A DNA stretch of 64,000 bases from Holothuria scabra. Lineage: Eukaryota; Echinodermata; Holothuroidea; Aspidochirotida; Holothuriidae. A program made the translations under genes and the position numbers. Shown in pieces: positions 7,701 to 61,384 of this stretch. Each line of letters starts with the position of its first letter. The stretch's first letter is position 1. The notes beneath the pieces were generated by a model. The model had not been told where the DNA came from and did no database searches. It saw only the letters and a program-made list of their open reading frames with translations. The stretch lies in the NCBI GenBank assembly GCA_037179385.1, contig CM074200.1, forward strand, positions 30,445,884 to 30,509,883, given 5' to 3'.

Positions 7701-9385
7701 TTAACTAAAAAAAGGGCGTGATGCGTTTGTTATCAGTTATAACTTAGAGAATTTGGGAGACATTTGGTCGGAAGTTGAGGGTTGAGGATTAGATGAGAAT
7801 GAATTCATTTAAAAGGATAAATGGTCATGTGAATAAGTAGTCAAACACCTATTCACTTTTTTGTGGGTGATGTGATGTATTGCGCTGCAGTCAACTTCAT
7901 GTTTTCAAGTGCATGAAAATTTTACTTCTAAAGGGCACAACTCGTCATAATTTGATCCATTTGCCACATATGTCACAACCATACACCTCTTTCAGTAAGG
8001 GCTGAACTCATTAAACCTTTATATAGGGGCAGGAGGGAAGGCAAAAGGCTTTAAAAGAGACTATTCTTTGTTAGGTCAATTCCAATGTAGGTCTTAAAAG
8101 TATTGCAGCAATAACTCTGTCAGGAAGAATGTTCCACATGATCTTTTGTCCCCTACGGATGGTGTGTCCACCTCCCTCTCTGCTTGGATAAACAACATCA
8201 ACAAACACTAGATAAGAAGTGGACCATACTGTTTGCTCTCATACTTGAGTGAATTTACCGGACAAATACACACCCACATCTTTCTTTGGATAAACTGTCT
8301 CACTGTTTGCTTTGAGCAGGAAGTCGGGTAAAAGTTAAATTTCAACATCGTCTTTTTTTTTGCTGTGGTGTCGGGCGAAATTCCTAATAGGGGAAGAATT
8401 TTGACATGCAGATAATAAAAACCATATGACTAAAGAAATCTTTGCAGATCCAATCAGGACAGAGGTTTGAACTTTTTGAATCTCTGACCATGTTTCACTG
8501 ATGCATCCATCATGCAGAACGACTGTAGAAGTTCGAAGTACATAACTTATATGGGAGTTATTTTGAGACGTATTTGCAGTCATATTTGACAATACTAAAA
8601 CTTGTAGTATTTTTCATGATTTGTAGGTGATTGCACTAATCTATTATAGTGAGATCCATGTTAGCTGTACTTTATGTTGAAGGTCACTGTCCAGGTCATG
8701 ACCGTCTGGTTACGTCATGACAAGATTGACTACGTAACGACAAATTCTAATTGCGCGGGCTCTGGTAATTTAAGTTATACGGAGCTCGTAGCGTTGTTTG
8801 CGTTCAGTTGGATTCGGCCCGTCAACTCAACCAGACGTGTATTTAGGACTCACTCATAAAATTAGTAATATAATTCGTATTTCCCGTTAGATTTGGATCC
8901 AGAATTATTGAACAAAGTGTTTCAATAAAATTATTGTAAACCGTCAAAGAACTTGTCTTCCCTTCGTTCAGTCTTTCGCCGTATTTATCGCTCGGGAATC
9001 GTAAAACTTTGAGTGAGGCCCGCGCGCTACGCACCGACTCAAAAATAGGCCTTACATTATAAATATTCAAAATTTTGCTCAAATCTCTCAAAAATACAAA
9101 TGGACAAGTATTCCCAGAAAGGCTATTTTATTTTCAGTTGAACTATCGTGTATTAAATTTTAGGAGACATTTAGTCTGACTGGCAGTGACGACGCTACGT
9201 GGATAACCAGGGGCATTTGTGTCCTCAAATGTTTTCGTTGTAACCACCATCTACAATGAGATCTTGTACTCATCCAAAATTAGTTTAATCATAATTATGT
9301 ACAGGTTATGACTGAGCGAGAACAACTTCCAGGGGAACCATTATTGGTGGATGCCTAGTTTTTTGTTATTCAGGCTTCCAGTTAT
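1773..9385. other. Intergenic, no gene recognised
   Basis: I find no domain or splice-consistent coding sequence in this AT-rich 7.6 kb. The short open frames are compatible with chance. A perfect (AC)n microsatellite lies at about 3329-3352. Confidence 0.4.
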
Positions 9386-13184: not shown

Positions 13185-13835
13185 CTACAACGTAAACTCG
13201 TTTAAAATGCCCATATCTTTGTTCAGACCCCTGGTATGTGTTTTTAAGGATAAAATTAGTTTAATCTCCTCAGCTTTTCGTTGATCGTCGTCCCTAAAGT
13301 TGCCTTTCCAGATGATTAGCTTTAGATTGTCTATTGTGTGTTCGGGAGAGGAAAAATGCTCTGCAAAAGAAAATCCAGTAAGTCGCTGTGAAATGGTGTG
13401 TTTATGATTGTTGAAACGGAGACGGAATTTTGTCTTCGTTTCTCCTACATAATTGCCTTCAGTGCATTTTTTGCAAAAGAGTACATATATAATATTGGCA
13501 GAATCACAGTTAAAGTTACCTGGATAAAGTTTGTCTGAGGTGCCGGGGGGGGGGGGTATGAGGGATGAAGTACAGAAATGCTTACATTTTGGCATCTAGG
13601 TCTGCTGCATGGCGAGTTCCCTGTAGGGCTATAAGGACGAGGAATTTTGCTGCTTACGAAAATCTTTCTTAGGTTAGAGGGCTGTCTGAAAGACAGAAGA
13701 GGTCCATTATTGAAGGCGGCCTCTAATTCGACGTCATTTTGAAGAATTCTCCACAGTGATCTAAAGTTCTGGAAAAGATCCCTCACGATAGGATGGAAAT
13801 TGGTGGTGAAGGGAATCCGTTCAGGAGGGGTGGCC
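13185..13835 (-). pseudogene. Penelope-like element: RT end plus GIY-YIG (copy 2)
   Basis: Two overlapping minus-strand frames form one broken coding region. The upstream frame (about 13835-13520) gives the end of the RT/thumb region with FTTNFHPIV, SFRQPSNLRKIF and a Cys motif (CSRPRCQN). The downstream frame (13595-13185) gives the nuclease with ANIIYVLFCKKCTEGNYVGET and a following RLRFNNHKHTI. The frame change lies near the G run at 13545-13555. Most of the RT is missing, so this is a 5'-truncated copy with its downstream tail still attached. Confidence 0.87.
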
Positions 13836-15718: not shown

Positions 15719-16030
15719 GGGGCATTTGTCACAACTGTGACTAATGCCCCAACGGTAATTATGTAGGCGAAACCAAAACTCCATTCCGTCTCCGGTTTAT
15801 CAATTATAAACAGACTATTCGCGAAAAATCCGACCAATATACTGTTTCATTACACTTTAATCTCCAAGACCATGGACTTGAGAATCTACACTGTTGCCTG
15901 CTACGTGGAGGATTGAAATCCGACTCTGATCGTAAATCGTATGAGCTAAAGGTCATGAATAAGCTTAACACGCTGCACCACGGTCTGAATAGGGAACGGT
16001 CGCACTTGGGTTCCTTCAATTGCCTCCGAT
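15719..16030 (+). pseudogene. Penelope-like element: GIY-YIG end of copy 3
   Basis: The plus strand encodes [29 protein letters not shown] and [14 protein letters not shown], closely matching the nuclease of copy 2. One stop interrupts the Cys region just before NYVGET. It begins exactly where the RT segment on the opposite strand ends, so the two look like halves of one element with its 5' part inverted. It ends at a TGA near 16030, before the (TA)n at 16062. Confidence 0.85.
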
Positions 16031-41475: not shown

Positions 41476-41622
41476 CAATCTTGGACAAAACTGTTGGGAC
41501 ACTTTGCCATAATATTCTTGAATTTCAGTTCAAAGGCTTACATGAATCCCCTCCCCCGCTCCCCCTTTCAATGTTGCGCTGAAAGAGTGAAAGAGTGAAA
41601 GAGTGACTGTCTACCGTGAATA

Positions 41623-42149
41623 TTTTGGGATGTAAAGTAAAATGGTCTCACCTCCATTTACGAAAAACTCTAATGCCAGGGACGCAACAAAATGGCGTCG
41701 CTGTAAGGACCTCGTGCTCGGCGATGTAGTGGAACTGGTATTATCGCCGCACGCAACACCTCAGTCCCAAACAAAAACTGTCGAGCTGCCAGCTGCTGCC
41801 CGACTACACAGGACTGATGTGTTGGGGGAGACGAATGATTTCTTGTAGATATCTCCGAGATTTTGGTAGGTAATTCCAAGTGCACTAAGTACTGTCGTGT
41901 CAAAGTCGAGGACGGTTTATTCGGAAACTTCAGCGGAGTTGGTATCCACGTCTTTCCTGCGTCGCTGACTTGATGCTAGTGAGGACATCCTGACCGTTAC
42001 ATGCCTGCTCACCACGAAAGTCGTACGTGTGATTGGTCAGTCCGGTCCACTGCACACGTAGCTTATGTAAATAACAAGTTGTACTGGGACAACCTATGAA
42101 TATGTATATTTTGCACTCGAATGAAATTACTTGAAGTGCAAGTGCTACA
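41623..42149 (-). repeat. 3' LTR of deleted Ty3/gypsy element
   Basis: 527 bp, matching 44023-44548 with about a dozen substitutions and one indel. The minus-strand start is TGTAGCACTTGCAC. The AATA duplication lies at 41619-41622. A purine-rich run on the minus strand (CTAGGGGGGACTAA, about 42150-42163) directly abuts it and is a good polypurine tract. Confidence 0.85.
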
Positions 42150-42243
42150 TTAGTCCCCCCTAGATGACTTATGAATTAGAAAATCATCGATAAAGTTAAT
42201 ATTTACTAAAAATGGACAATCTGTAGGTACCCTTTGGGCCAGT

Positions 42244-43982
42244 TTACTTTTCTACCAGACCGAGTAGTAGTGGTCTTATCATCTGACTGTTTAAAATTGA
42301 CTTAGTGTCAGATGCAGGGTGTGGCACCACTGGAGGTGTAGAAACAGATAGGTTTGGTGAAGGTGGTATTGCCTGGCCAGAATGAGCAGTGTCACTGAAA
42401 TCATCGGTATAAGCAACTTTAAGCCTATCGATACTAATTGTGGAACGACGTCCATCTATGCTAATGGTAAAATGCTTGTCCTTCCTGTCAAGGACTAGAT
42501 AAGGCACTGAATACGGTGCCTGTAAGGGTTTTTTGACACCATCGGTACGTAACCACACATGCGTACAAGTAGCTAGATCTTTGGGAATGTGGCTTGATCG
42601 AGATGAAAGCCTAGTCAGAACTGGGCGTAGTTTTGCCATATGAGATTTCAGTCTATCAACATAAGTATCGTCTGGAATGGCTGACTGACCTGACGGGTGT
42701 ATAAATTCACCAGGAAACACCAAGGTGGTACCAAACACCATTTCAGCTGAACTACATTTAATGTCTGCTTTAAAAGCGGAACGAATATCTAACAGAATTA
42801 ACGGTAATGCTTCACTCCAAGCAGTAGGTTGATGGTGAGCTTTAATTGAGCTCTTAAGCTGGCGATGAAACCGCTCTACTAATCCATAAGCCATGGGGTG
42901 GTATGAGCAGGGAGTTGGTATGAGGTGGTTCTGAACCTTTCACATCCTAACAAGTTATTAAGGTTACGGAAAAGTGCAGATTCAAACTGCGCATCTCGAT
43001 CAGTGATAATTACAGAGGGTACGCCAAACATCGAAACCCAACGACTAATGAATGCTTTGGCGACGGTTTCAGCCGTAATGTCAGAAATTGGAATGGCCTC
43101 AGGCCAGCGTGTAAACCTATCTACTATGGTTAACAGGTAAGTGTAATTGTTGGAAGGCGGTAAAGGACCGACAATGTCCATGTGAATATGAGTGAATCTA
43201 CGTCCTGGTGACTCAAAAGAACCTAAAGGACCTTGAGAATGCCGGTGAATTTTGGACATTTGACAATGCAAACAAGACCTTGACCAGGCATTAATGTCCT
43301 TATTCATACCTTTCCAAACATATCTGCTAGAAATAAGCTTTCTAGTAGCAGCAATACCTGGGTGAGACAAATCATGGAGTGAGTGAAAAACAGTGCGTCT
43401 GAACTTAGAAGGGACATACGGCCTAGGTACGGGGGTAGACATATCGCACTAAATAGTCTTACCTGTCCCGAGTAGTGGTACATCCTGGACCTTCAAGGAA
43501 GATGATCCTAGTAGCTGAGTAAGCTCATCATCTTTTCCTTGTTGAGACGCAATGTCTTCTAAATTAAGGGGTGAATTAGGGGGAAGAGTTAGATTACTGG
43601 CTAGATTAGTTAAAGAACACGTGCTACGAGACAGTGAATCCGCAACAGTGTTTTCTGTGCCCTTAATATAACGGATATCCGTGGTAAATTGGGCGATGTA
43701 ATCAAGCTGCCTGATCTCTCTAGGCGAATGCCTATCAGGCTTGGCTTTTAAAGCATATGTTAGTGGCTTGTGGTCGGTAAGTATAAAAAATGGGCGACCC
43801 TTAAGCATATGCTTAAAATACTCAATGGGCAAATAAATTGTTAATAGCTCTCTCCCAAATGTACTGTACCTCGTTTGAGTAGGGGAGAGCCTACTTGAAA
43901 AAATGCAATTGGCTTCCACACACTATTTACATTTTGCTGTAAAACCCCGCCTACAGCAACAATGGAAGCATCAACAGTCAAA
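42244..43982 (-). pseudogene. Ty3/gypsy pol remnant: RNase H and integrase
   Basis: Reading down the minus strand, RNase H has LTVDASIVAVGGVLQ (Asp), FGRELLTIY (Glu) and ILTDHKPLTYAL (Asp). A 1-nt shift follows FF near 43900. Next is integrase, with a zinc-finger region (HPGIAATRKL, then CLHCQ) and the catalytic Asp in HMDIVGPLPP and ITDRDAQFE. Then come, after another frame change near 42890, GLVERFHRQLKSSIKAH with the catalytic Glu and a C-terminal part to 42244. Gag, protease and RT are absent; RNase H starts almost directly at the primer-binding site. A non-autonomous, internally deleted copy. Confidence 0.88.
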
Positions 43983-43989
43983 CCAGAAG

Positions 43990-44021
43990 GGTTGCGTGTT
44001 CAAATCACGTCGGGGTCACCA
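43990..44021 (-). other. Primer-binding site, 32-nt match to tRNA-Trp 3' end
   Basis: The plus strand reads GGTTGCGTGTTCAAATCACG followed by TCGGGGTCACCA. As I know eukaryotic tRNA-Trp(CCA), this equals its whole T arm, acceptor 3' strand and CCA. After one extra G, CAGAAG may extend it into the anticodon stem. A normal Ty3/gypsy site is about 18 nt (44004-44021). Confidence 0.8.
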
Positions 44022-44022
44022 A

Positions 44023-44548
44023 TTTAAGGATGTAAAGTGAAGTGGTCTCACCTCCATTTACGAAAAACTCTAATGGCAGGGCCGCAACAAAATGGCGTCG
44101 CTGTAAGGACCTCGTGCTCGGCGATGTAGTGGAACTGGTATTATCGCCGCACGCAACACCTCAGTCCCAAACAAAAACTGTCGAGCTGCCAGCTGCCGCC
44201 CGACTACACAGGACTGATGTGTTGGGGAGACGAATAATTTCTTGTAGATATCTCCGAGATTTTGGTAGGTAATTCCAAGTGCAGTAAGTATTGTCGTGTC
44301 AAAGTCGAGGACGGTTTATTCGGAAACTTCAGCGGAGTTGGTATCCACGTCTTTCCTGCGTCGCTGACTTGATGCTAGTGAGGACCTCCTGACCGTTACA
44401 TGCCTGCTCACCACGAAAGTCGTACGTGTGATTGGTCAGTCCGGTCCTCTGCACACGTAGCTTATGTAAATAACAAGTTGTACTGGGACAACCTATGAAC
44501 ACGTATATTTTGCACTCGAATGAAATTACTTGAAGTGCAAGTGCTACA
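44023..44548 (-). repeat. 5' LTR of deleted Ty3/gypsy element
   Basis: 526 bp. On the minus strand it begins TGTAGCACTTGCACTTCAAG and ends at TCCTTAAA, one base before the primer-binding site. It is followed on the plus strand by AATA (44549-44552). Confidence 0.85.
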
Positions 44549-47029: not shown

Positions 47030-48000
47030 ATGGCGAATCTGCATTGTACAGACTTCCTCCCAAGCCGTTTTGAGGGCGATAAAATTAATGCAGATTTGGC
47101 AAGAGCACATTTTCTAGCCTTTTCAGATTATCTAGAGTCACACAATTTGCATAATCCCGCCGATAACGCCCAATGTCAGACCGTAATTTCGCTTTTCAAA
47201 CGTACCCTTTAAGGTACTGCACGTATTTGGATCGAGGGCAAGGTTTTTCCAGATCTTCCAAATTTAAGGGCCTCTTTTCTTGTCCGATTAAGTGAATGTT
47301 CCTCACATCATGCCTTAAGCAGACAATTTTCAGAACTCAAACATATTGAGGGCAATACTGCAGAACAATTTTTAGCCTTAATCAGAAAATTGGCTTTACT
47401 TCTGGGCTAAACCGAACTTCAGGTGCGTGATAAATTTTTATCCGCTCTTCCTAGTGATTGCCAATCTGCCGTGTCAATGTCGACAGACCAAAATGCAGAC
47501 ATAAACGCACTTGTGCAGAAAGCTCAGATCTATTTAGATTTGAAGAAGTCCTCTTCTTCTAGCCCCGCCTCTTCTACTGCAGTGACTAGTACTCATGGCA
47601 CGGCCTTGTCTACCCACACAGACAATGTGTTGACTAATGCAAGCATTTCAGAATTGTGTAACAACATAGACGGTCTGCTAAATAATCGCTCTCGTACTTC
47701 CGATAGGCAGGCAAATAATAATTAATCCCCTCGTCAGCGTTACAATTCTACGGATAGCAGACGACAGGGTCTTCGTCGTAAGCCACAACCACGGGCGCAT
47801 TTTAACCAAAGTAGGCCTAGACTTGGATTTCAGGGGCTGTGTTTCTAGTGTAATGCCCCAGGTCACAAGGCCGCAAACTGTTTCCTGCGTCAGGAACATT
47901 TAAGGGCGAAGTTCGGCCCTCATTTTCACTCTTATCAGCCTACTGAAAGGCACATGACCAATCCAGTTCCGTCTGCACGCAATACCCAAAATTTGCAATA
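47030..48000 (+). pseudogene. Ty3/gypsy gag, decayed
   Basis: One frame runs from an ATG (MANLHCTDFLPSRFEGDK) through IWIEGKVFPDLPN, LRKLALLLG and DKFLSALPSDCQSAVS, interrupted by in-frame stops at about 47210 and 47408. The layout matches a retrotransposon Gag that packages element RNA. A CCHC zinc knuckle near 47850 (CF-stop-CNAPGHKAANC) has the right CX2CX4HX4C spacing, but a TAG replaces one residue. Confidence 0.8.
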
Positions 48001-48048
48001 GGGGATGTCGGTGGGTGTACTCCTCACAGGCATTCCGGAAAAGAGGAC

Positions 48049-48928
48049 GTGCCAAATTTCAATGCATCTAGTAACACCGCTTCTTACCTAGGGGATGAGC
48101 CCGAAGCAACTATTCAATTAGATTGCAGAAATTTTGTCAAGGCACAATTAACAGACGGAAAGAATATTTTATTATTGTTTGACTCTGATGCCATTCATGG
48201 AAGTACTTCCATGGTCTATTTTATCTGCCTCTACTGTTAAGAATTCACGTTACTTATCGTCTCTCAAGCCATGTAAAATTAAGTCATTGTCTTTTCGCGT
48301 GGGAAATAGTCAATTTTTGGTTGCTCATGAGACTTTGACATTCGTCGTAAATATTCAGGGTCATAGCATTCAGTTAAATGCATTCATCACTGATAACCTC
48401 ACAGGTTTAGACCTAATTTTAGGAACAGATACCTTAAAACAGCTCAATGGAGTTCTAGATTTTTCAAACAATTCCGTTAAGATTAAGCCAGGTGTGCAAC
48501 GTTTTCGTCCTACGAGTAAAGTTGTTATTTACCCACGTCAGTGTAAGTATATTAATTTGCAAAGTCGTGTGCCATCTTGCTTACGTAACACTGACATAGT
48601 TCTTCAGCCTGCTGCATTTATTGCACACATGTACCCTACTTCAGTGATGGTAAAACTGCATAAAGGTAGGACTAGATTCATGTTTAAAGATATTGGTACA
48701 CACCCATTTGTTGTGTCGCCTAGGCAACATGTAGCTTCTTTTGACTTATCTGATATTGTGTCAGTAACTCATAAACTTCATGAGGATTGTTATCGTAAAT
48801 GGTTAGAAGAACGGCAGTTCTTTAGGCAGTCTTTAGAGCATGTTAATGCTATAACATCACAATTTTCAGGTGATGATAATTGCAGTGAATATTCACAACG
48901 TGACCATATACGGTGTTATAACTTGTAA
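48049..48928 (+). pseudogene. Ty3/gypsy protease and connector, frameshifted
   Basis: The first frame (48049-48240) ends with LLLFDSDAIHGSTSM. DSD with preceding hydrophobics stands at the aspartyl-protease active site, normally DTG/DSG. The second frame (48179-48928) continues with the flap/C-terminal part (GLDLILGTDTLKQLNGVLDF) and a connector. A +1 or -1 change separates them near 48200. The active-site Gly is replaced. Confidence 0.7.
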
Positions 48929-48940
48929 CGTCACCCACAT

Positions 48941-50435
48941 TTGAGTGCAAATGATCCCTTAACTTCATTGACAGAGTCTGAAATCATTAGGCAACAGGTC
49001 TCCTTACAGGAGAGTGTTTTAGATCCAAATGAACACGACGAATTTTACCAAATGCTGGATAACAATAAGAAAGTCTTCTCCTTAAATGGTGAACTCTCCA
49101 GTTGCCCGAACTTGGAGGCAGATATAACGTTAACCAATACCCTGCCTTTTTTCATTAGGCCATATAAATTATCTCCAGATGATAAACTTATTGTCTCAAG
49201 AGAACTAGATAAAATGGTAGATCTTGGAATCTTGGCAGTTGGGAACCAGTCTTATACGTCTCCAGTTTTCTTAATTCCAAAAAAGGGCACAAATGAGAAA
49301 CGTGTGGTAACTGACTTCCGTTTTTTTTTTGAATAGCAGGATTCAGAGACTTAACCACCCCTTCCCACTCTTGAACGAGACGTTACGCACAATTGGTAAC
49401 TCTGATGCCACAATTTTGAGTGTTTTAGATTTGAAATCCGCCTTCTTTTGTATTCCTTTGAGCAAAAATGCTCAGAAGTACACAGGTATTGCATCTTATA
49501 GTGGAGGCCGACTTTATTTCTATAAGCGTCTGCCACAGGGACTGAATCTCAGTCCGAGTATCTTTAGCGCTAAGATGACTGAAGTACTGTTACAGGTACC
49601 AAATTCCGATCAGTTTTGTATTTCTATGCATGACGACATTATTGTTTACAGCAAAGACAAGTCGTCTCATTCCAAACACTTGTTAGCAATTTTTAAAGCT
49701 TTGATGGCTAATGGTTTGAAGATTTCGCCACGCAAGTGTAGTTTATTTCGCTCATCGGTCACCTATATGGGACATATCATAACTGTTCATAATGATAGAA
49801 AGGCTACAATTCAGCCACTAACTGATAGATGTAAAGCGATTCGCAGCACGCCAGTCCCCCACAATGCAAAGGCAGCACGCAGGTTTGTAGGTGCAGTAAA
49901 CTATGTATCAAGCTTTTTTTCCCGAATCCAGGAAGATTTAAGACCTATTCACAAATTCAGTAGGCAGAAACGTCACTTTCAGTGGACAGAGGAACATCAG
50001 AAAGCCTTTGACACAATTCGCAATTTAATGTGTAATCCACCAGTTCTTCATATGCCTAAAAGAGAAGGTCGTTTAACTCTTTATAGTGACTCATCAAGGA
50101 TTGCCACTGGTTCGTACCTTACCCAGACTGTTGATGGGAAATAATATCTTTTATGTTACTACTCTAAGGTTTTACCAGAACCTTGCACTCGATATAGTGT
50201 AACAGAGTTAGAATTATTTGGTTTGCTCATTAATATTAATGGGTTTGTTCACCTTCTCAAAAATGTCGAATTTGACGCATATGTGGATTATGCTGCACTT
50301 GTTGAAATTCTCACATTAAAACGTGAGCCCCCTACCTCACGACTCAGAAATTTGTTGTTTAAGTTGTCACAATTTTCATTCAAGGTTGGCTATAAGAATG
50401 GTTCTGAATTTGCTTTAGCAGATTACCTCTAGAGC
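48941..50435 (+). pseudogene. Ty3/gypsy reverse transcriptase and RNase H, broken
   Basis: The first frame (to 49336) carries the RT fingers (SPVFLIPKKGTNEKRVVTDF). A homopolymer T run at 49321-49330 shifts the frame. The second frame (49329-50144) has VLDLKSAFFCIPL, RLPQGLNLSPSIF and the catalytic HDDIIVYSKD, where His-Asp-Asp replaces Tyr/Ile-Asp-Asp. RNase H starts at LYSDSS, passes a stop at 50142 and goes on to VTELELFGLL and FDAYVDYAAL, where Asp-Tyr stands for the usual Asp-His. It ends FALADYL. Confidence 0.85.
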
Positions 50436-51190
50436 GCCTCAGAATGGCGACTCCGAAATCGATAGGATACTTCCTCTTGCATTTTCTGCCATCTCAGAAT
50501 TCCTGGAAAATGACTTTGAAGATCACGCTCTTCCAGTTTTGACTAGAGCTAGAGCTAAAGCTTTACGTGTTCGAGTGCCAGATTTGCTCCCTGGGAGGAA
50601 AACTTCTCCACCCCCTGCAGCCACGAGTGGGAATGTGCATACTCCTGCACAAAGCAGTGATACTTCATAGCAGCAAAACACTCCAACCCCACCACCCCAC
50701 CTGCTTTCCGTGGTAATTCAGCCCCCAACAGGTGCCCCCCCCCCTCTCTGTGCAGCAACCGCTTCTCCCAGCGCCGCCTCTCTTACATCATCATCCTTTA
50801 CCATCACAAGGTCCAAAGGCGAGCACACCAAAGGCCCAGCCAGAGCCACGTCTGGTAGATTTGCCAGAAGAACGCCACAGAGCACCCCCTGATGACTTGC
50901 TTACGACAAGTAAGCCCTTCCTTGCCGATGTGAAGAATTTTCGGACTTCACACATACCGCATCAAAGAGATATACAACGTGTCATGCACAAATTTCAAAG
51001 TAAAATCATTCGAAACTACGATTTACCATTTGACGCAAAGCAATTGAAAATGCAACAGGCAACGTGTCCCTTCTTTAAGCCAATCTACGATTTTTTGGCG
51101 TATTATATTTTGCCACAAGATGTTAAGTCTGCTCGTACTATTCGTACCCGAACTGAACGATATATTATGTGTGATGGTCTTTTGTTTAGG
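50436..51190 (+). pseudogene. Ty3/gypsy linker between RNase H and integrase, Pro-rich
   Basis: The frame at 50732-51193 reads a Pro-rich, low-complexity stretch and then FLADVKNFRTSHIPHQRDIQ, KMQQATCPFFKPIYDFLAYY and YIMCDGLLFR. The last part is the usual sequence just before the integrase zinc finger. Stops near 50670 and at 51191 break it. Confidence 0.6.
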
Positions 51191-52280
51191 TAGAGAAAAT
51201 TCTTTCAAAATATCATGATGATCTTCTCAGTTGTCACCAAGTTGTTATGAGAACGTATCTCACCATAAGACAACACTTCTTTATGAGAAACATGTTTCAA
51301 GTTGTCAGCAATTATGTTAAAGCTTGCCTTAAATGTCAACAATTTAAACCTAAGCAGGATAAAATCAGACAATTTCATGCAAGAGTACCAGATTCATATC
51401 GTCCTTTTGATAAGATTTGTTTGGATTTCAAAACCATGCCTACATCCAATGCAGGGTATAAACATATGGTTGCATGTGACGAAATTACCAGATTTGTTAT
51501 TTGTGTTCCTTTAAAAACACTTGATGCTCCAACCATTTGTAAGGCGATCTTATACAAAAAATTGTTACTCTTTTTGGTCCTCCTTCTACGCTTATAACAG
51601 ATGCGGCCAGGTCTCTCACTGGGAAATTAGTGGAATTATTGTGTTCTGCACTAAATATAGACAGAAAAGTCATCAGTGTCTGTAATCATGGTAGCCTCCA
51701 AGTTGAAAAGCAGATAAAGACACTTTCAAATTTTTTAAAGGTCAATCTTAACCAATTTTGCACTGATTGGGTGCGATATATTCCTCTCTACGACCTATGC
51801 GTACAACGCATTTCCCTCCCCCCATTTGGGTGACCACAGCCCTTTTGAGTTAGTCTATGGTCGCAAACCACGTGATCTCACAAATTTGAACTTTAACCCC
51901 ATGGAAGGTCTTTCTCACTCGTACAGTGAGTATGTTAATCTTTTGAAGAAAAGGTTTGATCACTTGTCACAAACGATGTTTACACTTCAAAAGCATAATC
52001 AGGATAAGCAACAGCTCGTCTACTTGTACAAGCAAACGAGCTCGTCACTTACTGCCAATTCTCGTAAGATTGTTGCAGAATGGGTTGGACCGCTTGTCAA
52101 ACATGAAATTCTTGACCGCGCTCACTACCTTCTGCAGACATTACAAGGTGATGTTTTGCAAGACGTATTTAACTTTAACAGGCTCAAACCATGTTTTGTA
52201 GAGTATCATATCACAGTAAACCCATTACAAGTGTTGACAAACTTAAAGCAGCATGCGACGAAAATGTGCATATGGGTGTA
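51191..52280 (+). pseudogene. Ty3/gypsy integrase, broken into several frames
   Basis: Visible in order are the HHCC domain with CLKCQQFKP, the first catalytic Asp in FDKICLDFKTMP, the second Asp in TLITDAARSLTG (frame changed near 51570), and the Glu in GSLQVEKQIKTL. After another shift and a stop near 51831 the GPY/F module reads VAEWVGPLVKHEILDR and FNRLKPCF. At least three frame changes make it non-functional. Confidence 0.82.
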
Positions 52281-52698
52281 AATGACGAATCTCATCATAT
52301 TCATCCCAAGATGAAACAGGCAATGTTTTGCCTTCCGTCACAAGCAAAGATATTTTTGCCATTTATCATGTAGATCCCATTGATGTCTCCCTGTGCCTGC
52401 ACCACGTTAAACCCAATCATAATTTAGCTACTATAGTGCCTTTAAATGACCACCAAATAAAGTTTCAATTTCGACGTCTAGCACGATGGAAGTTTGCCGT
52501 GCACGTTTTCATGGAGGAAATTTACAGATTTTGCTGAGTATGCGATTTATGGGAACACTCCCTGATGCTCAGCCCTATAAATTTTGGTGGAATGCTCATC
52601 AATATGCGGACACGACTGACATTTTAGATCACTTATTGGATGCATGTGTCCCAATCACAGGTGGTCCTGCTAAGTTTGTTCAGCGATTGTTTCAGTAA
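52281..52698 (+). pseudogene. Post-integrase coding extension, unknown function
   Basis: Two overlapping frames (52328-52537, 52486-52698) appear to be one sequence interrupted near 52500. They contain DVSLCLHHVKPNHNLATIVP, KFQFRRLARWKFAVHVF and KFWWNAHQYADTTDILDHLL. It lies after the GPY/F module, where Ty3/gypsy elements may have a chromodomain or env. It matches neither by eye. Confidence 0.4.
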
Positions 52699-53306: not shown

Positions 53307-53789
53307 TGTCGTGGATCAAGTGTGACCCAGGCTTCCGATGAAGAGTTCTAACATAAATACTCGAAGGCGACAGGACACAAATGATGAAAAGACTATCGTC
53401 TATATTATTAACAACTGAATGATCAATTTGATGTATTGCTGATTTATAGCTGGGCTGGAATCAACAACTGACAAGGTCATATCATAAGCGAAGTGTACAG
53501 CTTCACTAAAGAGTAAGCAAGAGTTACTGTACGCAACTTAAACTTAGAAAAAGAGTACCTCTGGAAGCAACTCCACAACAAATAACTGCTCTTACGACCA
53601 GCTCTAGGCCAGAGAGATACAGGCCCCGCTGTCGACTAAAATAAGAAGAGAATGAACATATGTGCGCAAATCCTTATATACCCATCCAACCAGCTAACAA
53701 TGATGGATTGTGGGAATACATCCTCTCTTGTACGGATACCCTAAATAAACTCTATGTCAAGGAGACATGGAAATGTCCACACTCCGACA
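53307..53789 (-). repeat. 3' LTR of young Ty3/gypsy element
   Basis: 483 bp, TGTCGTGG...CTCCGACA on the plus strand. It equals 60902-61384 except for four substitutions and no indels. Target duplication GTAC lies at 53303-53306. On the minus strand the purine run AGCAGGGAAGA (53790-53800) precedes it and is the likely polypurine tract. Confidence 0.97.
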
Positions 53790-54138
53790 TCTTCCCTGCT
53801 TGAAATGACAATTTGCCCTCAAACTGGAATTTCAACACAACTCTGTTTTAACTTGTGATCACTATTAAGTAGGTAAATTATTCATTACAGATACACAAAG
53901 TAATTACAATCTAACAAGATGAACAGGTTTACTAATAAAATGATAGCTCACTAGCAGAAAAGTGTGGAAACAACCAAGTGTCTCTCTGAAAGAGCAAGGT
54001 TACTCCCCACTAAAAGCTGGAACACTTGAAAAATGTGAACACAAAACACTTTGATCAGAAGAAAGTACCTCATAGCTTTTCTTCATCTATTAATGCTTTC
54101 ACCTTTAAACAAATGTGAATGACATTTGATCCATATTT

Positions 54139-54675
54139 TTATAGACCTCCCTCGGTCAGATGACAACCATCCCAAATATATTTGGGAAAATTGATTTTCT
54201 TCTGTGGCAATAACTGAATCTTAGGAAACAGGGACTCTAACCTGGTTGCTAGTAGGGAGTTGTATCTTCTAACCCTATGATTGAACATTGCCACTTTTAC
54301 CTGACCAGGTCGAGAAATCTTCGTTCTCTGGATAACAGATAAAAACACAATACACTTAGGCTTAACATTAAAGTGATCAAGCATATTTATGAACTCGAAA
54401 ACCTTATCTACTAATTGACCTGGGGTAACTTCGTGGTCACACAGATCATTTGTGCCCAGATCAACCAGAATAACATCAAAATTACAACGACCTAATGTGA
54501 TTAGATATCTACTAGGTCTCTTAAAAATCTTGTTGAATGTTAGGCCTGAATAACCATGAATTGTGAGAGAACAACTTTCTGGCAAACTTTTTACACATCC
54601 CTCATGGGCCTTAATATACCTTTCTGCACGAGCTGGAAACGAGTGTCCAAATAAACAAAATCGCAATGACGCCAT
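54139..54675 (-). CDS. SGNH/GDSL hydrolase-like ORF inside the gypsy element
   Basis: 178 residues starting MASLRFCLFGHSF. The four SGNH blocks can be placed. The nucleophile is Ser12 in FGHS (GHS in place of GDS). Block II Gly is likely Gly44 in GYSGLT. Block III is Gly74-x-Asn76-Asp77 in VDLGTNDL. Block V is Asp169-x-x-His172 in DGCHLTEGG. SGNH enzymes are esterases/lipases using this Ser-Asp-His set. The ORF lies 115 nt after the last integrase frame and before the 3' LTR, the position of env in gypsy-type retroviruses. It ends soon after the catalytic His. All catalytic positions are kept; the substrate is unknown. Confidence 0.75.
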   Translation of the reverse strand: MASLRFCLFGHSFPARAERYIKAHEGCVKSLPESCSLTIHGYSGLTFNKIFKRPSRYLITLGRCNFDVILVDLGTNDLCDHEVTPGQLVDKVFEFINMLDHFNVKPKCIVFLSVIQRTKISRPGQVKVAMFNHRVRRYNSLLATRLESLFPKIQLLPQKKINFPKYIWDGCHLTEGGL

Positions 54676-54790
54676 GACTACACAGCCTCAGCTCTAGAGA
54701 ATAGCTACTCACGCAAAGAGGATAAACCTTGTTCCGCAGTAAACGGACAACTTCTTGTGAGGCACCAATGACTTAAACGTTTGACATTAC

Positions 54791-55309
54791 TCAATTTTGA
54801 ACTGCTGAACGTGGTAAGTGAAGGGGATTGGAGTGAAGACCCTTTGATTGTCGAGTAGAACGACGGAGAGTAGGCTCAGGTAGACATGAAGACCTCCCTT
54901 GTTCCAAACCTTCATGAACAATAGAGAAAGAAGTTGGTAAATCATCATCACTCTCAGAAGTATCACTTTCAGAACTGTCAGTCTCTGGCAATCCCTTCAA
55001 TACACTATCAATAGGTGGGTCCTGCCCTTTGTCTAAATCTTCCCTTGGATCTTGAATTAGCATTCTCCTATTGACCCACTTTTCACTACCTCCCAGCCAT
55101 GGTCGTATACAATATAAATCCTTTTCAGTGTTGGAAGACACTATCACATAGGCATCTTCACAAAATGCATCTTCTAGCTTGTGCCTGCCCTTGAAAGCAC
55201 ACTTTTTCAATAACACTCTACTACCAGCAGACAGAGGTACAGCATTAGCCCTCTTATCATGCTTCAATTTATCCTTGTTAATTGCGGATTCAATCCTTTG
55301 CCTAACCAA
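54791..55309 (-). pseudogene. Young gypsy element: C-terminal part of integrase
   Basis: Continues the integrase in a third frame. It has RQRIESAINKDK, then a GPY/F-like beta module (AGSRVLLKKCAFKGRHKLED, YCIRPWLGG), an acidic Ser/Asp tract and a basic end (LRRSTRQSKG). A single-base change near 55310-55320 separates it from the preceding frame. No chromodomain is seen. Confidence 0.75.
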
Positions 55310-55773
55310 CTCATAACCCGCTGCAGGAACTTACTTTGTGACTCAACAAAACTTTCAGCCCATTCGCCTCTTGGTATGTTCAATAGATTGTCTAAAGGTA
55401 TCCTTGGTTCCACACCATACACAAGAGTGAAAGGTGCCATCCCAGTGACCCTATGAGGTGTTGAATTGTATATAAACACCAGATGCGGCAAAAGCTCAGG
55501 CCACTGCCGACGATTAGCTCTGTCTATTGATTTGATTAGCCCACATAATGTTTTATTGAAGCGCTCTGTCTGCCCATTACCCTGGGGATGATATGGGCTA
55601 GTTCTGGTTTTCTGAATACCATACAACTTACAAAACTCCTTCACAAGAACGCTTTCAAAATTTCGATCTTGATCAGAATGTATCCTCATAGGAATGCCAT
55701 AATATGCAACCCACTTATCTCTTAAAAACTTTTGCAACAGTAGGGGCAGTTTGATCTTTGCAGGGAACTGCAT
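55264..55773 (-). pseudogene. Young gypsy element: integrase catalytic core, second half
   Basis: This frame gives YYGIPMRIHSDQDRNFES (second catalytic Asp), TSPYHPQGNGQTERFNKTL (catalytic Glu) and the usual LVFIYNSTPHRVTGMAPF. It joins the long gag-pol frame through a one-base shift in an A/T-rich run near 55730. That could be a real inactivating indel or a base-calling error. Confidence 0.85.
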
Positions 55774-58700
55774 GAGCCAGCTTACTGAATGCGTCAGTCA
55801 TAACAAGCACATCTTCAAACCCATGCTTCCCCTTGTCTAGCTTCAAAAAATCAATCGCTAACAACTCAAATGGTCTAAAAGCTAACAAATGTCTGAGTGG
55901 TGGACGGACATTGGGCATTGGAGCTTTGGCAAACGTACACTTAAAACATTTTCGTATGTGTTCCCTAACATCTCTATTCAACCCTGGCCAGTAACATCGT
56001 GCACCAAGTAAACCAATGGTCCTCCCCATACCTTGATGACCCCAGTCATCATGAACTGCTGTCAAAATGACCTTTCTCAACTTAAATGGAACTAGCAGCT
56101 GGAGTCTGTTTGGAAATACCTCCCCCTTAACCTGCCTATACAACACACCTTTGTGTTGCACGATAGTTGGCCACTCCTTCAGCCACACATTACACTTGGC
56201 ATCTATGTGGGAAGGACGTTCTTGACCTATCTCCCACTTGGCATCCCACAATTCCCATATCTGTGATAGAATAGGGTCTTCCCTTTGCATGATTGACAAC
56301 TCCTCATGAGAGAATGAAGGCATTACACTACATGATGCAGCCTTCAGCCCATCAGCACCCAGGCTTTGGTGACCAGACTGTTGCCCCAAATTCAGTGGAA
56401 GAACAGTGCAACCTACAACATCACAACACACATTTGCCATCACATTTTCTCCAACATTTTCTGATACATCCTGTGGACGTCGGCTGAGTGCATCTGCACA
56501 TAGATTTAATTTACCTGTACGATACCTAATTTCTAGATCGAACGGTGCTAGCTGAGCGTCCCATCTCAGCTCAGTTGCCCCTAATTTGGCGGTTTTCAAG
56601 TATGCCAATGGGTTATGATCAGTTAAAACAATTGTATGAGTCCCTCTTAAATATCCTCTAAACTTTTCAGTAACTGCCCATTTAAGGGCAAGAAGCTCGA
56701 TCTTAAAGCTTGAATAATCAGGATACCTTTTCTCTGCTCCCCTAAGACACCTACTGGCAAAGGCTATAGGATTTAAATCCCCTTTAGCATCATATTGAGA
56801 TAGGCATGCACCCAGCCCACTCAGCGAGGCATCCACCTCAACCACAAAATCCTTCCCAAAATCTGGATATGCCAGAACTGGGGCTTTGCATAATTTTGAT
56901 TTCAACAAGGCAAATGCATCTTCAGCCTTGTCTGACCACTGAAAATCTCGAGACTGTCCCTTGCCAGAATTAGCCCGACCGTTGCTGACCAACGCATGTA
57001 GGGGTCCAGCAACTTGAGAGAAATGGTCAATGTACTTCCGATAATAGGATGCTAGGCCTAGGAAAGAGCCAAGCTGATCAATGTTACTTGGCCTTGGCCA
57101 GGCCAAAATCTTCCCCACTTTCTCTGGATCAGTTGAGATACCACAGCCATTAACCACATGTCCCAAAAACTTAACCTCATGCTTAAAAAATTCACATTTA
57201 GCAGGATTGAACTTCAATGAGAATTTACTCAGTCTCTGGAATGCTTTTTCCAGCCTAGATAAGTGCTCCTCAACACTAAAAGAAAAGACTAAAATGTCAT
57301 CCAGATATATAACTAACTCTGTAAGATTAAGGTCACCTAACACCAACTCCATTAACCTTTCAAAGGTACTTGGACTGTTGACTAATCCCTGAGGCATTCT
57401 CGTAAACTCAAACAATCCCCACGGTACCCTAAAAGCTGTCTTTTGCACAGAGTCCGGATGCATTGCCACCTGAAAATATCCCTGTGACAAATCTAGAGTG
57501 GAAAAATACTGTGAACCACCCAAAGCCTCCAAGGTTTCTTTAATGCGAGGTAATGGGAAAGAGTCCTTAACAGTTTTGGCATTTAACTGTCGATAATCAA
57601 TACACAGTCTTAAGTCACCATTTTTCTTCCGTACCAAAACGGTAGGACTTGCGTAAGGACTTACTGATTTTCTTATAATTCCCTTCTGCAGCATACTTTG
57701 TAATAACTCCTTAACCTCTGATATCTGTTGGGGGTAAATTCGCCAGTAGGGCAGATTAACTGGCCTCATGTCAGTCAAATTAATTACATGGGGTATGGCT
57801 TCACAATACCCTAAATCCAAATCATCTTTGGAAATCACATGACTGTAACGTTTCAGCAAATCCCCCACTTGAGCCAGTTGGCTTGTACTCAACCCTGTTG
57901 TCTCAACATTTGGAAAAACTGAATTAGTATTTGCATGGCAGGATTCTTCCTTATCCCCTTCTGAGTCTGTTACCACCTCTGACTCAAGATTACGAGCCTC
58001 TCCATGCAACACTGCGATATCCCTAATATCTACAATTATACCATCGTCTTGTGTTGCCATCATCACTTCTGGCAAAACACTTGCTGTCACCCCTGTGGCC
58101 AGCATAGAAAAGGGTGGCATAACCAAAACCTCCTCCCCTGAATTCTCTACTAAAACCTCAACAGAATTTCGGTGAATACTATAGATACCTTCGTGCACAA
58201 CACCTCCATGGACACCATGTGAATTCTCAACTAAGCACAGTGACTCAGAGATGTTCCTGTCAGGTTTTGAAACAGGAAGGTCTACTACAACACCATCATC
58301 GAAATATCCGGTCAACAGTCTCGCCTCCCCAGGTTGCAAAAGTTGTACACCCTGTCCCAGCCTGAGACTAAAATTCTCAACACTGATAGCCCTTGCGTCT
58401 GTAACCTCATCATTACCCTTATCTGTAGGAGCATTAGCTTTAACCGAATGCAAACTCTGGTGGGCAACTGCTGTAGTACAGTCCCCCGACTCTACAGATA
58501 CCCTGTTAACTTCGGGCAGGCAATTGAACACGAAATCCCAGCAACCCCCATCCTCGCTGGCTGGTACTACTGGGCCTAGAGACTTTAACTTCTTCAAAAT
58601 GTTACAGCCCAGAAGAACTGGGTATTCTTCCCTTTTCCTGGACTTGAACTCTGAGTCTGGTTGTATGAAAAAGCTACCCTTCAATGTGTGGTTCCTGACC

Positions 58701-60076
58701 ACTATATCTAACTCCACATACCCCTCAAAGGGGATATCAACCCCTGAGGCACCATACAAATTAAAATGAAAGTGATCACTAGGCTGCTTTGGCTGACCTC
58801 CTTGATGAGATAGGTACTTAAAATAATATGATGATGGGATGAGAGAGGTCTCTGCCCCAGTGTCCAGAATACAAGTGACTGGAACCCCTGCTATCTCAAC
58901 AGTGGCAGTTGGGCTTCTACTAACTAGTTCCTCAACCAATTTGCTGTCTTCAAACCCTGGATCTGAAACCCCTAACCCTGTAACAGTATTCACTGAGACC
59001 TCTGAGCCGCCCTCAGACTCCTTCACAGTGCCACTTGACTGCAGTGGAGCTGCCGCAGGCTGCATGGCAGTCGCTGCTTTTCCCCCTTCTGCGTTATCTT
59101 TTTCGTCCCGAGAGCCCAAAGACAGTATAGGTACTTGCTTCTCAGGACAATCTCTGGCATAATGGCCCTTCTTGTGACATGAGAAGCACACTAAATCTTT
59201 CACAGGCACACCACTACCCCTTGTAGGACCTGCATATTTCTTAAAACCTCGTCCTTGACCACCACCTATGATAGAAAACAATTTATTAACTTGCTCTTGC
59301 AAGTGTTTCTGTCCCTCAATTAATTCTCTCACTACAAGGTGGTTGGCTGTTGGGTCATTAGTTTCCTGTACACCAACCTCCATAGCCCCTAGGCCTACTT
59401 CTCTCACATAACTTTTCTTAGTGCTCAATGATTCCTGGTCCTTAAAAAAATGTAAGACCTCATCCCTCATAGCAAAAAAGTCTTTATCTTTATTAGCCAT
59501 TTCTATCCTTCTTAACTCACGTTTTGTTAAAGGATCCCTTGCCCCACTTACAAATCTTTCCTTTAGGGCACCTTCCTTAAGGCTAGCTAAGGCTCTTCTT
59601 TCCTCTGTGGAAGCTATGTTCTCCATTTTAACATATATCTTCATTAGTGCCCTACTAAAGTCAGCTAGACTCTCCCCTTCTGCCTGATTTCTTGAATAGA
59701 AGGCAGCATTCAATGACTGGTAGGTTTCAAGGGGGCTAAACCTATTCCTTAACACCTGTGTAATGTCTTCAAAAGACCCCCTAGTTGCAGGGGAGTAACA
59801 CATCAATTCTTCCCTTGCACTTCCGGCTAAATGGTCAATGAGTACCGACGCCTTTTCACCATCTGCTATGGCATACTGCCTACAATATGTGTCACACTCG
59901 TCTAACCATTCTGGCAGTGTTGGATCACCTGCCTTCCTGTGAGATCCACTAAATTTATGAAGCCTAGCCGTAGGATAGGCTTGCAGCTTTAGCCCCTGTA
60001 GGGACTGGGCAAGGGAGTCTGCCAACCCCTTATTAGATTCTGCTAGAATCCTTGCAATGTCTTCAGCTGACATCAT
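55715..60076 (-). CDS. Young Ty3/gypsy element: gag-pol polyprotein
   Basis: 1,453 residues in one open frame. Gag occupies about 1-290; the CCHC knuckle is Cys297-Cys300-His305-Cys310 (CFSCHKKGHYARDC). Aspartyl protease is at 405 (DTGAET). RT spans about 780-970 with LDLSQGYFQV and the catalytic YLDD at 924. RNase H has Asp1082, Glu1127 and Asp1153 (TDHNPLAYL). The integrase zinc finger is His1342/His1347 and Cys1377/Cys1380, with the first catalytic Asp1409 (AIDF). The frame stops inside integrase at a one-base shift; the rest follows in the next frames. Gag and Pol are fused without the usual frameshift. It would copy and integrate the element. Confidence 0.95.
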   Translation of the reverse strand: MMSAEDIARILAESNKGLADSLAQSLQGLKLQAYPTARLHKFSGSHRKAGDPTLPEWLDECDTYCRQYAIADGEKASVLIDHLAGSAREELMCYSPATRGSFEDITQVLRNRFSPLETYQSLNAAFYSRNQAEGESLADFSRALMKIYVKMENIASTEERRALASLKEGALKERFVSGARDPLTKRELRRIEMANKDKDFFAMRDEVLHFFKDQESLSTKKSYVREVGLGAMEVGVQETNDPTANHLVVRELIEGQKHLQEQVNKLFSIIGGGQGRGFKKYAGPTRGSGVPVKDLVCFSCHKKGHYARDCPEKQVPILSLGSRDEKDNAEGGKAATAMQPAAAPLQSSGTVKESEGGSEVSVNTVTGLGVSDPGFEDSKLVEELVSRSPTATVEIAGVPVTCILDTGAETSLIPSSYYFKYLSHQGGQPKQPSDHFHFNLYGASGVDIPFEGYVELDIVVRNHTLKGSFFIQPDSEFKSRKREEYPVLLGCNILKKLKSLGPVVPASEDGGCWDFVFNCLPEVNRVSVESGDCTTAVAHQSLHSVKANAPTDKGNDEVTDARAISVENFSLRLGQGVQLLQPGEARLLTGYFDDGVVVDLPVSKPDRNISESLCLVENSHGVHGGVVHEGIYSIHRNSVEVLVENSGEEVLVMPPFSMLATGVTASVLPEVMMATQDDGIIVDIRDIAVLHGEARNLESEVVTDSEGDKEESCHANTNSVFPNVETTGLSTSQLAQVGDLLKRYSHVISKDDLDLGYCEAIPHVINLTDMRPVNLPYWRIYPQQISEVKELLQSMLQKGIIRKSVSPYASPTVLVRKKNGDLRLCIDYRQLNAKTVKDSFPLPRIKETLEALGGSQYFSTLDLSQGYFQVAMHPDSVQKTAFRVPWGLFEFTRMPQGLVNSPSTFERLMELVLGDLNLTELVIYLDDILVFSFSVEEHLSRLEKAFQRLSKFSLKFNPAKCEFFKHEVKFLGHVVNGCGISTDPEKVGKILAWPRPSNIDQLGSFLGLASYYRKYIDHFSQVAGPLHALVSNGRANSGKGQSRDFQWSDKAEDAFALLKSKLCKAPVLAYPDFGKDFVVEVDASLSGLGACLSQYDAKGDLNPIAFASRCLRGAEKRYPDYSSFKIELLALKWAVTEKFRGYLRGTHTIVLTDHNPLAYLKTAKLGATELRWDAQLAPFDLEIRYRTGKLNLCADALSRRPQDVSENVGENVMANVCCDVVGCTVLPLNLGQQSGHQSLGADGLKAASCSVMPSFSHEELSIMQREDPILSQIWELWDAKWEIGQERPSHIDAKCNVWLKEWPTIVQHKGVLYRQVKGEVFPNRLQLLVPFKLRKVILTAVHDDWGHQGMGRTIGLLGARCYWPGLNRDVREHIRKCFKCTFAKAPMPNVRPPLRHLLAFRPFELLAIDFLKLDKGKHGFEDVLVMTDAFSKLAHAVPCKDQTAPTVAKVFKR

Positions 60077-60877
60077 GAATAACTACTGTGAAGCCAACAA
60101 CCACAGAATACAAACTAGTATGATACTCTAGGGTATTAAAATGGAACTTAAGGCAGCACCAAAGCTACTGTACATGCAATTACAATTTACTAAGGAGCCT
60201 TCCCCGCTGTTCCAATTTTATAACTAATGAAGTGTGCATGCACAACCTACACACTGAAATGAAACAGCTTGGTTGCATGTACTCGAGCCTACTACCCCAT
60301 TGATCTATTCACAAACAACACAGTCTACAGCATTAATTGAATTCAGAATCCCACTTACAGTACAAATACCACCTGTTATGTACATGCTAATCTCAATATA
60401 GCACAGTCCCTGCACCAGTAGTAGCTACGCAAACTGCAATCCCTACAGTTTGATGTGAAACTGGCTCACAAACAAGAAATGTTCTCTGATGACTCCCAGC
60501 TCACTGACTTAGGCACTCCCAGCCTAGACATGAAACTGCCACTGCCATAGTACACCAGACTGTCTATAATAATTCGCTGTGGTGGTCCAATAACTCCCAG
60601 CCTGAGTTCCTTCCCCCAGGTACAGTATATCTCAACTCTTAACAGTCACCTACAGTACTGTAGAACACTGAATTCAACAATTACCATACATGTGGCTGCT
60701 TTCTTGTAGCTTCCCTTCTACTTCCTTTAATGTGGCCAAGGAGACTGAATTAGCATCGATCACAACTTCCAGCCCGCAGACCACAGCTCTTCCTTCTTGA
60801 TTCCAGAGGTACTCTTAGAACTCTTAAAACTAACGTAATTAAGCAAATGCAATTCTGCATCAACTGCTCTTGCTCGC
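60077..60877 (-). other. 5' leader of the young gypsy element
   Basis: About 800 nt between primer-binding site and Gag start, with no ORF of note. It probably holds packaging signals. Short echoes (CCCAGCTCACTGACTTAGGC and CCCAGCCTGAGTTCC types) suggest internal duplication. Confidence 0.5.
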
Positions 60878-60895
60878 ATCCCACTTCTGATACCA
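60878..60895 (-). other. Primer-binding site of the young gypsy element
   Basis: On the minus strand TGGTATCAGAAGTGGGAT lies six bases after the 5' LTR. Its complement, ATCCCACTTCTGATACCA, ends in CCA and resembles tRNA-Leu 3' ends (an inference from memory of such tRNAs). Confidence 0.75.
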
Positions 60896-60901
60896 AAAAT
60901 C

Positions 60902-61384
60902 TGTCGTGGATCAAGTGTGACCCAGGTTTCCGATGAAGAGTTCTAACATAAATACTCGAAGGCGACAGGACACAAATGATGAAAAGACTATCGTCTATAT
61001 TATTAACAACTGAATGATCAATTTGATGTATTGCTGATTTATAGCTGGGCTGGAATAAACAACTGACAAGGTCATATCATAAGCGAAGTGTACAGCTTCA
61101 CTAAAGAGTAAGCAAGAGTTACTGTACGCAACTTAAACTTAGAAAAAGAGTACCTCTGGAAGCAATTCCACAACAAATAACTGCTCTTACGACCAGCTCT
61201 AGGCCAGAGAGATACAGGCCCCGCTGTCGACTAAAATAAGAAGAGAATGAACATATGTGCGCAAATCCTTATATACCCACCCAACCAGCTAACAATGATG
61301 GATTGTGGGAATACATCCTCTCTTGTACGGATACCCTAAATAAACTCTATGTCAAGGAGACATGGAAATGTCCACACTCCGACA
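60902..61384 (-). repeat. 5' LTR of young Ty3/gypsy element
   Basis: 483 bp, TGTCGTGG to CCGACA. GTAC at 61385-61388 repeats the GTAC before the left LTR. Four mismatches to the other LTR indicate recent insertion. Confidence 0.97.

Follow-up and report, generated by a model that had tools for sequence, protein, structure and literature searches.

Why would an LTR retrotransposon carry a hydrolase gene where an env gene might be expected? The question is raised by an open reading frame (ORF) of 178 codons at positions 54139..54675 of the window (the whole 64,000-nucleotide stretch of Holothuria scabra DNA that was analysed). An earlier note had described this ORF as bearing a complete SGNH set and as lying between integrase and the 3′ LTR of a recently inserted Ty3/gypsy element, on the same strand as gag-pol. 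The ORF map and a Pfam scan confirm the env position and the strand, and the element is laid out as follows.

53307..61384, minus strand: Ty3/gypsy LTR retrotransposon, 8,078 bp, with GTAC on both flanks (TSD)
60902..61384, minus strand: 5′ LTR, 483 bp, 479/483 identical to the 3′ LTR
60083..60901, minus strand: leader of 819 nt ahead of the open frame, with a PBS-like TGG 6 nt past the LTR and one GTAAGT donor-like site
55715..60082, minus strand: gag-pol ORF, 1455 aa, with gag, zinc knuckle, PR, RT, RNase H, integrase zinc finger and the start of the integrase core
55264..55797, minus strand: continuation of the integrase core in another frame after a frame break, with an rve match below the curated cut-off
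54791..55330, minus strand: integrase C-terminal part in a third frame, its tail resembling the tail of relatives
54676..54790, minus strand: 115-nt spacer from the pol stop to the SGNH start, with putative acceptor-like pyrimidine-AG stretches
54139..54675, minus strand: predicted SGNH hydrolase ORF, 178 codons, C-terminus truncated compared with relatives
53790..54138, minus strand: 3′ spacer up to the 3′ LTR, with a short purine-rich, polypurine-tract-like end
53307..53789, minus strand: 3′ LTR, 483 bp, 479/483 identical to the 5′ LTR

Assignment to Ty3/gypsy follows from LTRs bounded by TG..CA, the GTAC TSD and the domain order PR-RT-RH-IN. In the Pfam scan, gag, PR, RT, RNase H and integrase all fall on the minus strand between 60082 and 54791; the gag match of the gag-pol ORF is below its curated cut-off, 54791..55330 shows no convincing Pfam family of its own, and no dUTPase was detected in the gag-pol ORF at E ≤ 1. 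The near-identical LTRs and the TSD uphold the recent insertion; however, pol is interrupted by two frame breaks (ORFs 55715-60082, 55264-55797 and 54791-55330), so the element is young yet defective.

The SGNH ORF runs on the minus strand from an ATG at 54675 to a stop at 54141-54139 (ORF listing), beginning 115 nt beyond the pol stop and ending 349 nt before the 3′ LTR. The Ser, Gly, Asn and (Asp)His blocks of the SGNH superfamily are present in the correct order as FGHS (Ser12), GYSG (Gly44), GTND (Asn76) and DGCH (Asp169, His172). The set is thus complete as described, but the protein itself is not: the frame stops ~23 residues early, full-length relatives being ~15-25 residues longer in the alignment, and a C-terminal helix in the predicted structure of one relative (P0018) is missing from the window model. 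A chance ORF is ruled out by the existence of homologues and by mononucleotide shuffles of 53790-54790, 0/2000 of which produced an equally long ORF (182 aa stop to stop). A host gene beside the element is also ruled out, the ORF lying inside the LTR pair and in other close copies. Because its frame differs from that of the last pol piece, read-through would not produce the SGNH protein; the donor-like GTAAGT in the leader and the acceptor-like stretches of the spacer suggest that a separate protein is likely to be made from a spliced message.

The ORF product is a predicted SGNH-fold hydrolase. The profile check by itself falls short, with a Lipase_GDSL_2 match of 20.9 bits against the curated cut-off of 32.9, whereas the structural model is confident (pLDDT 94.1) and adopts an α/β/α SGNH fold whose best Foldseek and VIA matches are SGNH enzymes, including PAF acetylhydrolase; the SGNH identity proposed earlier is thereby strengthened. 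Across the family, a Pfam match at E ≤ 0.01 was obtained for 69 of 70 aligned SGNH sequences. Mammalian brain PAF acetylhydrolase (3dt6, 1bwp) is alike in predicted fold and catalytic set, but is a host enzyme of only ~16% identity. The thioesterase/lysophospholipase TesA is also among the matches, and the fold matches do not distinguish a lipid esterase from one acting on glycans or proteins. Absence of the ZfL2-1 esterase structure from the fold matches listed has no bearing either way, and a sequence search of the PDB with the single window protein gave one meaningless match.

A protein database search found 136 homologues of the SGNH ORF, indicating that its presence in the element is not a recent accident. 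We aligned 69 of the 120 listed homologues, picked by eye for length and coverage, with the window ORF (n = 70); a second alignment comprised 62 of the 120 listed proteins. S, G, N, D and H are all kept in 65/70 aligned sequences, window ORF included, and the catalytic set is mostly preserved in homologues of as little as 30% identity. The relatives measure ~0.6 kb, with a median of 201 aa.

Within the genome, 1.5 kb of pol used as a DNA query gave at least eight matches, of which four are 96-100% identical and the other four 65-69%. Other copies devoid of the ORF would have made it a capture in one copy, as the earlier note reasoned; instead, it is present at the same place in each of the four close copies found, with the order pol, spacer, SGNH, 3′ spacer, LTR retained, and a one-copy capture is ruled out. 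No working SGNH copy was seen in this genome, all four being broken: the window copy has its early stop, the C23 copy an internal stop, one C1 copy an 11-nt deletion, and the other C1 copy stops and an insert. The gene is split by ~5 kb in the copy at C1:2.62 Mb, for which alignments of the 5′ and 3′ LTRs were unreliable and the result was not used. At the four distant loci (C3, C4, C6 and C19) the pol tail is retained, and neither the 2.6-3.0 kb past pol nor the rest of the stretch yields an SGNH match better than E 0.07; the gene was therefore gained in the lineage of the window element or lost in those loci, which fits the proposal of an acquired accessory gene.

Of the 34 matches to an LTR search, 22 map outside the four copies and have the appearance of solo or partial LTRs, many being of a longer type with ~570 extra bases. 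The family accordingly has two LTR types, 483 bp (window) and ~1.05 kb, the latter carrying the ~570 extra bases at one site (L018, L006, L019 and other loci); L017, L023 and L024 yielded no LTR piece.

Comparison of the copies reveals signs of past purifying selection on the SGNH gene. Against the most diverged, and oldest, copy, the SGNH gene gave a dN/dS of 0.31 (11 synonymous and 13 non-synonymous changes; Fisher p 0.008) from one uninterrupted piece of 414 nt, which fits a gene under constraint before the copies decayed; pol gave 0.46 for the same pair. The comparison across copies suggested earlier points to constraint against the oldest copy and is uneven among the three younger ones (0.35, 1.01 and 1.45, with few changes).

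We also sought the SGNH gene beside pol elsewhere. Fused pol-SGNH proteins numbered 0 among the 120 listed of 951 pol homologues (SGNH domain, E ≤ 10), and 0/23 and 0/11 pattern matches in viral and genome contig collections encoded a relative. Comparison of contig sizes between the 120 listed SGNH proteins and 113 pol contigs (7 of the 120 listed pols being without a size) identified five exact coincidences, at 8,049; 764,437; 2,377,792; 3,029,036; and 4,677,478 bases, compared to four matches in total over forty shifted offsets. SGNH and pol thus appear to lie on one contig in five public contigs, as judged from equal contig size rather than from neighbours read, adjacency on the four long contigs being not proven. 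On the 8,049-base contig, which is about the size of the window element, a pol protein of 1,402 aa would sit together with an SGNH protein of 197 aa. The SGNH/pol pairs (P0018/P0068 at 8,049 bases, P0012/P0054, P0006/P0074, P0008/P0076 and P0147/P0061) include pols 52-54% identical to the window pol over shared columns.

Trees and distances give an uneven picture that is no more than suggestive of a long co-inheritance of SGNH with pol. In the pol tree, SGNH-linked members occupy two separate places with the SGNH-less loci C3 and C19 branching between, the node that joins C3/C19 to the window element having a support of only 0.05; this tree left out P0025, P0032, P0033, pols beyond P0099 and loci C4 and C6, and 75/75 rows passed its coverage filter. 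Pruned dense SGNH and pol trees have 3/3 splits in common, one split per tree being supported near 0.2. The six-taxon trees disagree: the four long-contig elements group in 100/100 bootstraps for pol versus 24 for SGNH, where the window element falls beside c4677478 in 61. In the test of SGNH against pol distances, 43/720 permutations were at or above the r of 0.64. The named relatives of pol are sequences of sea cucumber, sea urchin, fish and frog; among those in the tree, the echinoderm sequences are the close ones.

What might the protein do for the element? The highest 19-residue hydropathy of the truncated window protein is 1.02, with no transmembrane-like segment, and its N-terminal 12-mer reaches only 0.88 (a hydropathy measure). 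Similarly, 64/70 SGNH sequences stay below 1.6 over 19 residues, a hydrophobic 19-mer occurring in 6/70. The window protein has a pI of 9.5, and the pI exceeds 8 in 67/70 sequences. The lack of a transmembrane-like stretch together with the basic charge speaks against an envelope and is in keeping with a protein of the cytosol that encounters acidic membranes or RNA. By sequence, then, the SGNH protein is probably not an envelope; an Env glycoprotein is disfavoured insofar as hydropathy reveals no transmembrane anchor in the window copy.

On balance, and with modest confidence, we favour a third gene that follows integrase in all four close copies, and apparently in relatives, and whose product is likely a cytosolic enzyme acting on membrane-lipid acyl esters in the particle cycle. 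The SGNH gene would give rise to a basic protein of its own, for which a spliced message is the probable source. The positive charge of this protein could dock it, along with nearby particles or RNA, on acidic membranes, although basic charge is equally compatible with RNA binding. By slowly hydrolysing a lipid or acyl ester, the protein may then aid assembly, transport or release. The model is the SGNH esterase in ORF1 of ZfL2-1, for which a solved structure and assays are reported; that enzyme is slow, binds acidic phospholipids and is proposed to bring RNPs to membranes (PMC3905857).

The protein could instead be a glycan O-acetylesterase that strips acetyl groups from sugars such as sialic acids on host glycoproteins, a receptor-destroying or surface-modifying activity for intercellular spread. 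We consider this unlikely, as animal PAF acetylhydrolase, a cytosolic lipid enzyme, matches about as well, and contact with surface glycans is not expected of a window copy that, by hydropathy only, has no signal- or anchor-like hydrophobic segment. Distinctly unlikely is a functional replacement of env, by which a membrane-active protein would let particles leave or enter cells and so spread horizontally. The env position of the ORF and its patchy presence among related pol loci speak for such a role, and the same idea has been raised for the GDSL genes of Vesta (PMC5408684) and Terminons (PMC6431247); against it stand the missing transmembrane-like segment, in the window copy as in the 64/70, and the doubts that the Vesta authors themselves voice, since transmembrane and coiled-coil regions are lacking (PMC5408684). 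A counter-defence or signalling enzyme that deacylates a host protein or lipid messenger, for example by depalmitoylation of a restriction factor, appears improbable: TesA is among the SGNH matches and depalmitoylation is one option named for ZfL2-1 (PMC3905857), but nothing in the analysis points to a host target. That the ORF is a host gene picked up by chance, a passenger with no role for the element, is highly improbable, because the four SGNH-less pol loci, the weak constraint among young copies and the decay of all four SGNH copies are countered by retention in place in those same four copies, the catalytic set kept in 65/70 and in homologues down to 30% identity, the dN/dS of 0.31 against the oldest copy and the five contig coincidences with pol.

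Returning to the favoured membrane-lipid esterase, the third gene is a real, conserved element gene, and a GDSL ORF3 in LTR elements is already known from Vesta. The idea raised by the earlier note is therefore not new in kind, and a Ty3/gypsy form without detected dUTPase is now added. The Vesta elements of bdelloid rotifers are LTR retrotransposons published as carrying a GDSL esterase/lipase as ORF3 (PMC5408684), a finding cited in a review (PMC5718144). By this published description, and not by sequence comparison, Vesta resembles the window element in having a GDSL/SGNH ORF3 downstream of pol with intact catalytic residues and no transmembrane or coiled-coil region reported. In contrast, PR and RT of Vesta are separated by a dUTPase, a domain that Pfam did not find in the window gag-pol; the GDSL clones of Vesta are ~1.3 kb versus ~0.6 kb for relatives of the window ORF; and Vesta is reported as rotifer-specific, whereas the close named relatives of the window pol are sea cucumber and sea urchin sequences, which are not known to carry SGNH. 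Within A. vaga, no significant departure from neutrality is reported (PMC5408684).

Other mobile elements offer further parallels. The ORF1 esterases of ZfL2-1 and other CR1/L2 elements are likewise SGNH enzymes of retroelements (PMC3905857), but of non-LTR elements, where the esterase sits upstream in a gag-like position fused to a coiled coil; the window ORF stands alone downstream of pol. The Hydro-SGNH ORF of Ngaro/DIRS elements is a separate ORF after the recombinase gene, with function unproven, although its host is a tyrosine-recombinase element with split direct repeats (PMC9210276). SGNH or GDSL ORFs also occur in Terminons (PMC6431247). The Helitron-mobilised texim genes of fish, with sea urchin and amphioxus members, tie an SGNH hydrolase to a mobile element, but have introns and no link to reverse transcriptase (PMC4021074). 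Among the open-access matches listed, with subscription papers and Repbase outside the scope, no further report of an LTR element with a third gene of the SGNH type was recognised.

Retroelements already reported with SGNH esterases comprise non-LTR, tyrosine-recombinase, Penelope-like and bdelloid LTR types, to which this case adds a minimal one-domain form, with many homologues, in a Ty3/gypsy lineage without detected dUTPase. Repeated use of one enzyme fold suggests a shared need in retroelement life cycles, perhaps for membrane lipids, which a stand-alone protein of ~200 residues makes testable by an ordinary lipid and esterase assay. A bolder extension, which we regard as unlikely, is an old and widespread animal Ty3/gypsy lineage in which a cytosolic membrane-lipid esterase, inherited with pol and needed for particles, has replaced the envelope; if true, such a lineage would represent an enzymatic, env-free route for a retroelement to host membranes.

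Several side observations concern this genome and the surroundings of the element. A second family of SGNH ORFs, at 27-32% identity, was found at C1:74.77 Mb of G000 (L008/L021), C21:10.18 Mb (L022) and C1:71.28 Mb (L007). It sits in a stretch of at least 8.3 kb that is present on two chromosomes at 99.7% identity and has 134-bp direct repeats; within 8.5-9 kb, there was no match to the 120 listed pol homologues. Inside the window, plus-strand ORFs at 47411-52281 adjoin the SGNH element and resemble a degraded Ty3/gypsy element with many frame breaks. Direct repeats at 41622-42149 and 44022-44548, 97.2% identical, surround minus-strand ORFs resembling pol fragments, and 41622-44548 is perhaps an internally shortened LTR element. 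Finally, the ORFs at 13188-13595 and 15745-16029, which lie amid long TA/TG microsatellites, appear to resemble Penelope-like GIY-YIG endonuclease ends.
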